Part shown: piece after piece, positions 4,149-6,871 of the stretch
Layout of the letters: the number at the start of each line of letters is the position of its first letter
Position numbering within the stretch: position 1 is the first letter of the stretch
Source of the DNA: Thermodesulfobacteriota bacterium
GTDB lineage: Bacteria; Desulfobacterota; DSM-4660; Desulfatiglandales; HGW-15
Assembly (NCBI GenBank): GCA_025454125.1
Contig: JALOPA010000126.1
Span: forward strand, 1-7,045
DNA: 7,045 nucleotides
Direction of reading: 5' to 3'
The notes under the pieces: generated by a model
What the model was told of the DNA's origin: nothing
What the model saw: the letters and a program-made list of their open reading frames with translations, nothing else
Database searches by the model: none
Translations under genes and position numbers: made by a program

Positions 4149-5000
4149 TCAGGGCCTGCGCCTGAAGAGGCCGGCCAGGGCCGTGGCAATTCCCGGTGAG
4201 GCAGTCTCCCAGGTGGACTGCACATAGGGCAGGAAAGGCTCAGCCCCCCACTTGCGCTTGAAAAAGCCGATCCCTTGGTTCACCGACAACCCCAGGTTCA
4301 CCACCGTGTGCCCGCGTCGGCTTGCCTCTTCCAGAATCTGTGCGAGAAGAAGGTCTGTCGCCCCCGGCGGGGCTGTTCCGGGATCCCTGAAGGAAAACAT
4401 GTAAAAGGCCGTGCTCAAGCTCGCGTACTCCCCGACAGAGAAAGCGGCCAATCGGCCGTTCGCCAGGCGAGCGGAGAACAGCACGCTGCTCGAGGACTCG
4501 GTCAGGTAGCGGGGAAGGTTTTTGAAAATCTGTCGGGTGCCGGCTGCAAGGGGCCTCTCGTTCAGATACCGCTGGACAAGGGCCTCGTGATCCTCCCGCC
4601 AGGAGCCCCCGCGATCCACCGTGAGCTCCCGTTCGGCACGGCGGAGCAGGTTCCTCGTTTTCTGGCCCGGCGCCGGAGCCGGAACCGGGAGAGAATAGTA
4701 GCAGTCCTCCTCGATTGCAGCCCTCTCAGGCGCCTGGGGCGGACGGGCCGGACCCAGAACCGTGATTCGGCGGAGGCCGGGAAGGCGCAGGGCCAGGCCG
4801 ACCGCTTCCGCCATTCCCCCTGTGTCTCTGGGGTCGCGAAGCGGGTAACCCACAAGCACCACGTCCCCTTCTGTTTCAAAGCCCACGCAAGGCCCCAGGA
4901 TCAGGGGCTTCAGATCGGACACGGCGAGGACATAAGGGATCACCTGCTCGGGGATCCGGGCCTGAGCCGTGACTCCCGCAAACTGTCCGGGCACAATCAT
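4149..5000 (-). CDS. GNAT/FemAB-like acyltransferase-type protein, stand-alone paralogue of the upstream protein's N-terminal domain
   Basis: A 283-residue protein that I recognise only at fold level. The C-terminal part, TVVNLGLSVNQGIGFFKRKWGAEPF (232-256), has the dLG...G...FKrkwG pattern of FemAB/BioF2-type GNAT-like acyltransferases (Pfam Acetyltransf_6-like). The N-terminal part has the acidic and hydrophobic pattern GPCVGFETEGDVVLVGYPL (37-54). It aligns along its length with residues 1-265 of the upstream protein: IGPYLFF..LIAVGFPL matches LGPCVGFE..VLVGYPL, DLLFREMIRIASEQGK matches DLLLAQILEEASRRGH, and HLGLGVNEGIRRFKTKWGG matches NLGLSVNQGIGFFKRKWGA. Start choice: the ATG at 5000 overlaps the upstream TGA as ATGA and is preceded by AGGAGG (5006-5011), so translation is probably coupled. 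A longer in-frame extension to 5246 only shadows the upstream gene. No signal peptide or membrane segment was seen. Substrate is unknown; aminoacyl or acyl transfer is family-based inference. Confidence 0.8.
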   Translation of the reverse strand: MIVPGQFAGVTAQARIPEQVIPYVLAVSDLKPLILGPCVGFETEGDVVLVGYPLRDPRDTGGMAEAVGLALRLPGLRRITVLGPARPPQAPERAAIEEDCYYSLPVPAPAPGQKTRNLLRRAERELTVDRGGSWREDHEALVQRYLNERPLAAGTRQIFKNLPRYLTESSSSVLFSARLANGRLAAFSVGEYASLSTAFYMFSFRDPGTAPPGATDLLLAQILEEASRRGHTVVNLGLSVNQGIGFFKRKWGAEPFLPYVQSTWETASPGIATALAGLFRRRP

Positions 5001-6688
5001 CGGCCCCTCCTGACCTTGAAGCCCGCACCCTCGATCATGGGCAAAAGATTGAGCAGGTGGGCTGCGCCGACAAAGACGGCACATCGGCCCTCCTCCAAGA
5101 ACGGCGTCATGCGTTCGAGAAAGAGCGCGTCGCGGCGGCGAATCACGTGCTCGGTGCGCGTGGGGAATTCGGTGCTGGTTCCCATCATTCCGTTCAGATT
5201 CCCCTTGAGATAGGCGCGCTCGTTGCGCTTGATGTACCCGCCCCACCGCTCACAGAGGCGGAAGAATCGCACGATCCGCGAGAGGGGAATGCTCTCCAGG
5301 GTTTCGATCTGTTCCGCAATGGTCTCCATACCGGCCACGGTCTTTCCCATGTCATGGGCCAGATGCCAGGCCTCCAAATCCACGGACTGGTCCCACCCGT
5401 GGCGCTTCAGATAGCTGGTCCAGAGAGAGAAAAATGCCATCCATGGGCGGGTTTCTGAGAGAAAGCAACGCACATCCGGAGGATCCGGCCGTTGAAAGCC
5501 CAGCACCCGAGGCCAGAAGCCCCTCGGTCCGACCACCACCCGCTCCAGCCGGCGAAGGTCTTCGGCGGTGAGGGCACCGATAAGACGGGTGCTTCCCGGT
5601 TCTGGGCTGCGGCCGATCTCTGAGACCTGGTCGAGGCTCGCCTGATCCAAGGGCCCCTCGAAGATCACCGTGTCCACCCGATCAAAGAGATCGCGGAACG
5701 AGGACTCGAAGCTGTAGCAGAAGAAGTGCGCCGTACCGCCGATCCAGGACCTGCGCCCCTCTTTTTCGAGCTCCCAGAGCATGGCGAAGCGCCGCTGCCG
5801 GGGAAGGCTGGCCAGGAACTCCCTCTTGGACATGGACGCCCCCCGTGAGGCGGCCAATGCTTTCATCAGATCGGTCACACCGGATCGGACGGTCTCCTTT
5901 TCCTCCCAGGAAGCCATCTCGTAGGGTAAGGAGGGAACTCCGCCCCATTTGGTCTTGAAGCGGCGGATGCCTTCATTGACGCCGAGGCCCAAATGAATGA
6001 ACGTCTTGCCCTGCTCACTCGCGATCCGGATCATCTCACGGAACAGTAAATCAGAGGCGTAGGGGGTGCAGTGCGTGCGGGAGTGGGCGCCGATCAGATA
6101 GGTCAGGAAACCGTGAGGAGCCGTGTCCAGCAGCAGGCAGGCCGCCAGGTGACCGTTCGGATCCCATGCATTGAGCAGGATGAGTCCCGGAGCTTTTGGG
6201 AGAACGGTCTCGGTCTTTGCAAAGAGCTCGCGCACATTCGCAGGCAGCGCCACCCGGCCCACAAACTCAGCCCAAAGGCGCCGGTGCGCTGCGGTGAAGG
6301 TGCTCCCTTCCTCCACCCTCAGGATCCTCGCTGTTTTTTCCGCCAGCCGCTCCAGCCGTCCGGACACCTTGGCCTTAGCAGGAAGAACGTAGTAGTGATC
6401 CCGGTCACGGCAATAGGGCTTCAGCCGATCAGGCAGCGAGGGGGCGATGGCCCAGCATGTCCTGGCCCTGGAAATACGCACCGCTTCCTCAAGGGCTTCA
6501 TCAAATCCCTTGCCGCCGGTTTCGCCGGAAAGGGGAAATCCAACAGCGATCAGCCAGTCCTCTGCCGTGAAAAAGAGGTATGGGCCTATGGTAAACGGTT
6601 CCCCGCCGGACATGGACTGCATGAACAAAGCCGAATGCTCCGGCACAGTGGCCCTTTTCAGGATTGAATCCAGTTCGGAAGAGTTCAA
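4997..6688 (-). CDS. Fusion protein: N-terminal GNAT/FemAB-like domain plus C-terminal TraB/GumN-like (TIKI-type) domain
   Basis: 563 residues. Residues 1-265 are GNAT/FemAB-like, ending in FIHLGLGVNEGIRRFKTKWGGVPSLPY (230-256). A linker (about 266-296) leads to residues 297-563, which fit the TraB/GumN family (PF01963, related to TIKI metalloproteases). Evidence for the second domain: the first GxxH motif in SWIGGTAHF (His321), VDTVIFEGP with Glu344, the helix DLEAWHLAHDMGKTVAGMET (437-456) followed by AEQIETLESIP, RRRD (517-520) where the family often has RN, and the second GxxH in VFVGAAHLLNLLP (His544) before GFKVRR. Family knowledge suggests metal-dependent peptidase-like or peptide-signal activity, but the substrate is unknown. 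No signal peptide is visible, unlike many GumN/TIKI proteins, so a cytoplasmic location is inferred. The start is a TTG at 6688, supported by GGAGG five bases upstream; no earlier start exists in frame, and the next ATG (residue 23) would cut the domain. It overlaps the downstream paralogue by four bases. Confidence 0.8.
   Translation of the reverse strand: MNSSELDSILKRATVPEHSALFMQSMSGGEPFTIGPYLFFTAEDWLIAVGFPLSGETGGKGFDEALEEAVRISRARTCWAIAPSLPDRLKPYCRDRDHYYVLPAKAKVSGRLERLAEKTARILRVEEGSTFTAAHRRLWAEFVGRVALPANVRELFAKTETVLPKAPGLILLNAWDPNGHLAACLLLDTAPHGFLTYLIGAHSRTHCTPYASDLLFREMIRIASEQGKTFIHLGLGVNEGIRRFKTKWGGVPSLPYEMASWEEKETVRSGVTDLMKALAASRGASMSKREFLASLPRQRRFAMLWELEKEGRRSWIGGTAHFFCYSFESSFRDLFDRVDTVIFEGPLDQASLDQVSEIGRSPEPGSTRLIGALTAEDLRRLERVVVGPRGFWPRVLGFQRPDPPDVRCFLSETRPWMAFFSLWTSYLKRHGWDQSVDLEAWHLAHDMGKTVAGMETIAEQIETLESIPLSRIVRFFRLCERWGGYIKRNERAYLKGNLNGMMGTSTEFPTRTEHVIRRRDALFLERMTPFLEEGRCAVFVGAAHLLNLLPMIEGAGFKVRRGR
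5006..5011 (-). promoter_or_regulatory. Ribosome binding site for the stand-alone GNAT-like gene
   Basis: AGGAGG on the minus strand lies five bases before the ATG at 5000, inside the end of the upstream gene. It fixes the start of the second gene and supports coupled but independent initiation. Confidence 0.85.
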
Positions 6689-6693
6689 TGCCG

Positions 6694-6698
6694 CCTCC
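6694..6698 (-). promoter_or_regulatory. Ribosome binding site supporting the TTG start of the fusion gene
   Basis: GGAGG (within GGGGAGG) on the minus strand is five bases before the TTG at 6688-6686. With no other start upstream in frame, this decides the unusual TTG. Confidence 0.75.
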
Positions 6699-6780
6699 CC
6701 ATCATCCTTGAAAGAGTCTTTGATCCCGTTCCCATTGCACCCAGCAGGCCGCCGAAAAACCCGGCTCTTGGGCCTTTGGT

Positions 6781-6871
6781 GTCATTCCCGCGGAGGCGGG
6801 AATCCAGTTTTTCCTGGCTCTTCTGGACTCCCGCCGGAGTTTACCCCCGCGAAGGCGGAGGCGGGAGTGAC
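6781..6871. repeat. 91-bp palindromic repeat of the ATTCCCGC...GCGGGAAT type
   Basis: The outer ends GTCATTCCCGC (6781-6791) and GCGGGAGTGAC (6861-6871) are inverted with one mismatch. Inside the left half is ATTCCC-N8-GGGAAT (6784-6803), the same pattern as the Neisseria dRS3 repeat and as common GTCATTCCCGCGAAGGCGGGAATCCAG repeats in many proteobacteria. CCAG after the left unit is mirrored by CTGG before the right unit. The right half has lost perfect symmetry (CCCCGCGAAGGCGGAGGCGGG). The element sits in the predicted leader of the minus-strand operon and would fold strongly in RNA. Confidence 0.8.

Follow-up and report, generated by a model that had tools for sequence, protein, structure and literature searches.

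Gene A and its paralogue gene B

The window analysed in this study is a stretch of 7,045 nucleotides (nt) from a Thermodesulfobacteriota bacterium (contig JALOPA010000126.1). The subject of the analysis is gene A, located on the minus strand at 4997..6688 (coordinates include the stop codon), which encodes a 563-amino-acid (aa) fusion of a Fem-type double GNAT domain, named GN1 here, with a TraB/PrgY/GumN domain. The adjoining gene B (GN2; minus strand, 4149..5000) encodes a 283-aa protein, and its ATG start overlaps the stop codon of gene A (ATGA). The alignment between the GN1 and GN2 profiles spans 275 columns at 27% identity (E 1.6e-72, probability 100), and gene B is thus a paralogue of the N-terminal half of gene A.

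The open reading frame (ORF) of gene A, proposed in an earlier note on this DNA that gave no strand, is real, and its minus-strand location is now established. Gene A begins with TTG, and GGGGAGG at 6694..6700 (minus strand), 5 nt upstream of this codon, is its likely ribosome binding site. At the residue matching this start, the relative at locus L002 has ATG and the relative at L004 has TTG. On the same strand, GN1 occupies residues 1-264 (5897..6688), as indicated by fold matches over residues 1-267 and by invariant columns; it is followed by a flexible linker of residues 265-293 (5810..5896; predicted local distance difference test score, pLDDT, < 50) and by the TraB domain of residues 294-563 (5000..5809), assigned from PF01963, a model pLDDT of 91.7 and conservation. 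The arrangement described in the earlier note, a GNAT-type N-terminal half and a TraB/GumN C-terminal half in one chain, is borne out: LGLGVNEGIRRFKTKWGG represents residues 233-250, His321, Glu344 and His544 occur at the positions it named, and GKTVAGMET is present. Gene B as a paralogous partner, the radical SAM gene of relatives and the dsrA link are new relative to that note.

In the C-terminal half, residues 303-561 match PF01963 at E 1.9e-33 with 116.9 bits, well above the cut-off of 26.8. A total of 30 TraB rows, 27 GN1 rows and 29 GN2 rows were aligned. All 30 TraB rows match PF01963 at E<=0.01 and possess E344 and H544, and H321 is found in 27 of the 27 rows covering that position, its region lying outside three TraB fragments. 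Matches of the TraB domain model to ChaN and erythromycin-esterase-like proteins, members of the TIKI/EreA/ChaN fold, are weak. This domain is a putative hydrolase.

The N-terminal half is less apparent at the sequence level. GN1 of gene A matches PF13480 (Acetyltransf_6) at E 0.012 with 16.2 bits, below the gathering cut-off of 22, and this family is matched by 12 of the 27 GN1 rows at E<=0.1. Gene B matches PF13480 at E 3.3e-7 (31 bits, above the cut-off of 22) and PF09924, the C-terminal domain of lysyl-phosphatidylglycerol (LPG) synthase, at E 4.8e-6, slightly below the cut-off; at E<=0.01, PF09924 is matched by 21 and PF13480 by 14 of the 29 GN2 rows. Despite the weak sequence match, the predicted model of the N-terminal half shows a clear double-GNAT fold of the Fem/LPG-synthase type, and the closest solved folds of known function are aminoacyl-tRNA users. 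Comparison with Protein Data Bank (PDB) chains gave no sequence-level match.

In GNATs that depend on acetyl-coenzyme A (CoA), a Q/RxxGxG/A loop motif after strand 4 forms the acetyl-CoA loop. This motif occurs at its place in none of the 27 GN1 rows and in only one of the 29 GN2 rows. The description of the N-terminal half as GNAT-like stands as regards the fold, but the domain looks more specifically like a Fem/LPG-synthase-type double GNAT. Phenylalanine and lysine were found to be invariant as F244-K245 in GN1 (27/27 rows; ~5954-5959, minus strand) and as F247-K248 in GN2 (29/29 rows). The key residues reported in PMC12945691 are Lys305 in FemX and Lys329 in DhpH-C, the latter with Phe328 and Asn325. 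The invariant lysine after phenylalanine in GN1 and GN2 is a putative counterpart of FemX Lys305 and DhpH-C Lys329, with a different spacing of the asparagine. Transfer from tRNA is supported by the double-GNAT fold, by the lack of a CoA loop, by the invariant phenylalanine-lysine pair and by the occurrence of paired paralogues, and GN1 and GN2 may use aminoacyl-tRNA.

Fused and split forms of the cassette

A total of 639 homologues of gene A were identified at E<=1e-3 among 7997 candidates scored, and the 120 homologues listed are 541-790 aa in length, each with a query coverage of 96% or more. The layout of gene A is therefore not due to chance, as the search for the same domain pair in other genomes, suggested in the earlier note, could show. 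The fusion was found in 18 loci of public genome contigs, whose records are named Deltaproteobacteria, Desulfobacterales, Syntrophobacteraceae, Desulfobulbus, Desulfovibrio and their kin; two others are recorded as Clostridia and Firmicutes. A cultured carrier is Desulfobulbus alkaliphilus DSM 24258 (locus L009). In the locus of the Firmicutes-named record (L018, G006:C21) the fusion copy is interrupted by three stops inside the match, and a GN2-like gene lies elsewhere in the genome.

A survey of 297 genomes from a single phylum gave 28 matching genomes; by coordinates, eight are fused (G058 only partly) and 15 have GN1 and TraB as separate adjoining genes. After three weak TraB-only matches were dropped, 25 carriers were kept; contig ends truncate the match in two of them (G099 and G156). 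One chain could, as the earlier note speculated, modify and cleave the same target, but a single chain is not required, as GN1 and TraB are encoded separately, side by side, in many genomes. On a tree of the 30 TraB rows, the 17 fused rows form one side of a single branch (support 100/99), and the distribution of fused and split forms needs one change, compared with 10.2 in shuffles. With the tree rooted by midpoint only, the event may have been a fusion or a fission; in the reading preferred here, gene A is a natural fusion of two cassette members. In G058 (L052:5453-7429) one open frame of 658 aa joins GN1 and the front of TraB to the back of a radical S-adenosylmethionine (SAM) enzyme, as if the intervening genes had been lost, or as the result of an assembly error.

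The GN2 profile, which also picks up GN1, matches the same 25 carrier genomes. GN2 proper was found in 22 of them: after TraB in 18 (seven fused, 11 split), before GN1 in two (G026, G100) and elsewhere in two (G183, G032). The carriers without GN2 are G058, G146 and G156, the last two being cut by contig ends. Directly 3' of GN2, 16 of the 22 carriers possess a gene with radical SAM and SPASM domains as assigned by Pfam. The NCBIfam models nearest to this gene are metalloenzyme maturases (103-116 bits, far under their cut-offs of 380 and 400), and profile comparison with PDB chains places BtrN and PqqE closest. At E<=1e-40 this radical SAM enzyme was found in 23 of the 25 carriers and in 46 of 272 non-carriers. 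In genomes that lack it next to the fusion, this gene can be located elsewhere (more than 370 bits in G003, G005, G306, G308 and G310), but it is weak in G303, G312, G004 and G006 and absent in G311. Comparison of genes A and B with the PADLOC defence models identified no family at E<=0.01; the radical SAM enzyme of L001 gave a partial viperin match (37.6 bits).

Of the 44 loci that contain the radical SAM gene, 12 encode, within two genes of it and with the cassette or not, a protein of family PF03601 (Cons_hypoth698), which we take to be the 'sulfate exporter family'. Loci in which this membrane protein was seen are L069, L070, L071, L074, L076, L078, L080, L085 and L102, and NifU-like and NifS-like genes occur in the same neighbourhood in L067, L069-L071 and L076. 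Divergent from the split cassette in both L055 (5.5-9.0 kb) and L063 (5.3-8.7 kb) is a hemB gene with a radical SAM gene on either side; the three look like an alternative heme synthesis set.

Association with dsrA and proposed role

Of the 297 genomes surveyed in the phylum, 144 have the dissimilatory sulfite reductase gene dsrA (TIGR02064), as do 23 of the 25 carriers, G100 and G156 being the carriers without it (Fisher p 2.8e-6, a value inflated by kinship). It is also present in 17 of 17 further carriers, which were chosen because they hold the fusion. In the phylum of G006, the record named Firmicutes, dsrA occurs in 26 of 149 genomes and the GN2 profile in three, all three with dsrA (p 0.005, and 0.03 when the centre genome is left out; kinship inflates these values). 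In two of these three carriers the fused GN1-TraB frame is open and GN2 lies elsewhere, and the third, G006, has the interrupted copy. The cassette is thus found almost only in dsrA-bearing bacteria, in genomes of at least two phyla. On single contigs, dsrA lies 6.4 kb from cassette genes in G087, 3.8 kb in G131 and 3.5 kb in G183; the order in G183 and G131 is GN2, radical SAM, PF03601 gene, NifU-like, NifS-like and dsrA, the three middle labels being taken from Pfam results on L069 homologues.

Analysis of the adenosine 5'-phosphosulfate (APS) reductase gene aprA revealed matches above the cut-off in 19 of 42 carriers (fused form 16/25, split form 3/16). Although 15 of those 16 split-form carriers possess dsrA, few have aprA, which indicates that the cassette tracks sulfite reductase more closely than APS reductase. 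The split-form carriers with dsrA and with aprA not above the cut-off are G025, G030, G068, G087, G099, G128, G131, G146, G181, G183, G205, G228 and G251; these 13 may reduce sulfite and not sulfate, the drafts being possibly incomplete.

We tentatively propose, at somewhat less than an even chance, that GN1 and GN2 add amino acids in a tRNA-dependent manner, that the radical SAM enzyme alters the product and that TraB trims or edits it, all on a target of Dsr metabolism. In this proposal GN1, TraB and GN2, usually with the radical SAM/SPASM enzyme, would form a conserved cassette whose first two members are fused in gene A. GN1 and GN2 would each transfer an amino acid from aminoacyl-tRNA to an amine of one target, which may be a protein, a peptide or a metabolite connected with dissimilatory sulfite reductase metabolism, and their product would then be modified by the radical SAM enzyme. 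The TraB domain would cleave an amide or peptide bond, either trimming or releasing the product or removing wrong additions, and the fusion together with the ATGA overlap would yield similar amounts of GN1, TraB and GN2. If the cassette serves Dsr metabolism, it would represent a previously undescribed step alongside the principal route of sulfide production in anoxic environments. A narrower version, in which the cassette is a dedicated Dsr accessory that builds an amino-acid-based cofactor or protein modification (for example on DsrC, another Dsr partner or a siroheme-type tetrapyrrole), with or without APS reductase, is quite improbable in our estimate.

Several observations weigh against the proposal. 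Among carriers, aprA exceeds the cut-off in fewer than half, as counted above; 121 of the 144 dsrA genomes are without the cassette, with the caveat that drafts are incomplete; linkage to dsrA is seen in only three of the 23 dsrA-bearing carriers, all of the split form; and the kinship of the genomes, as mentioned, inflates the p values. The radical SAM gene also occurs in the 46 non-carriers, is weak in G026, G032, G100 and G156, and was not seen in the window. The TraB rows do not show the full 2His/2Glu motif of a TIKI endopeptidase, as given for VvRRSP in PMC6254334: where its first glutamic acid would stand, two residues ahead of H321, the 27 covered rows have T (19), S (four), A (three) or C (one), and the domain is not classed here as a TIKI protease.

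The same genes could be read in other ways. GN1 and GN2 may be CoA-dependent acyltransferases acting on an amine, with TraB as the matching deacylase in an acylation switch or in a lipid or metabolite pathway; the near-total absence of the acetyl-CoA loop motif speaks against this, and we regard it as unlikely. The cassette may instead make a peptide natural product resembling ribosomally synthesised and post-translationally modified peptides, in which the radical SAM/SPASM enzyme would modify an unlinked precursor, GN1 and GN2 would extend it and TraB would release it. Partners of this kind are found together elsewhere, since graspetide branch 2 loci pair a SPASM radical SAM enzyme with a Tiki/TraB peptidase (PMC8939145), and Fem-type transferases work in natural product pathways (PMC12945691). 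However, among 738 short ORFs within 3 kb of the cassette in 39 loci, no family recurs in more than four loci, the sole likely short gene being a 61-aa ferredoxin-like gene in 4/39; an exporter is not constant at the loci, and co-occurrence with dsrA is unexpected for a general natural product. This explanation, too, has a rather low probability.

A still more doubtful explanation is that the fusion is a neutral joining of adjacent genes, that GN1, TraB and GN2 do not share a substrate, and that the link to dsrA reflects kinship only. One tree change suffices, the split form is common and the carriers are related, all as this explanation expects; but the fusion persists, at identities as low as ~50%, in several families and in genomes of the phylum to which a Firmicutes record belongs, the genes co-occur even when dispersed (G183, G032, G005, G345, G398), and in the second phylum all three carriers possess dsrA compared with 26/149 genomes overall.

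Comparison with known systems and other features of the window

Each part of the proposed tRNA-dependent system belongs to a known superfamily, and the combination was not found in the open-access papers searched. The earlier note knew of no described system joining the two activities; likewise, no description of this fusion or cassette was found in open-access full text, subscription papers and preprints being outside this scope. Unlike in FemX/FemABX peptidyl transferases, GN1 is fused to or beside TraB. The aminoacyl-tRNA-dependent natural-product transferases (Sbb17/Sba18, Orf11, VlmA, PacB, DhpH-C) differ from the present enzymes, which lie outside an antibiotic cluster as two paralogues with TraB and radical SAM, co-occurring with dsrA. 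In contrast to MprF and the lysyl-phosphatidylglycerol synthase C-domain, GN1 and GN2 are soluble and short and have no flippase domain. The TraB domain resembles the TraB/PrgY/GumN and TIKI superfamily in its PF01963 score and its conserved H321, E344 and H544, and differs from TIKI in the replaced glutamic acid of the motif (PMC6254334) and in its fusion to a Fem-type domain. The pairing of SPASM radical SAM with TraB is shared with graspetide branch 2 loci (PMC8939145), whereas two Fem-type enzymes are present here and no precursor peptide was found; no ATP-grasp gene was noticed at the cassette loci, where no search aimed at ATP-grasp was made.

The other scanned genes of the window, on the plus strand, encode aconitase, citrate synthase and a class II fumarase-type lyase, the last convergent with gene B. 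In the aconitase region (7-1096) the frame switches near a 10-bp direct duplication (GATCCGAAAG twice, ~868-888), with the front part in ORF 7-948 and the remainder in the frame of ORF 677-1096; the change may be genuine or an artefact of assembly. Positions 1129-1314, lying between aconitase and citrate synthase, contain degenerate GCAGGTTGCTGGTTGCA-type direct and inverted repeats with arms of 45 and 41 nt that are 71-76% complementary. Upstream of gene A, positions 6784-6866 contain a stem, ATTCCCGCGGAGGCGGGAAT, with a second GCGGAGGCGGGA copy 65 nt away, and this region is like a dispersed palindromic element.
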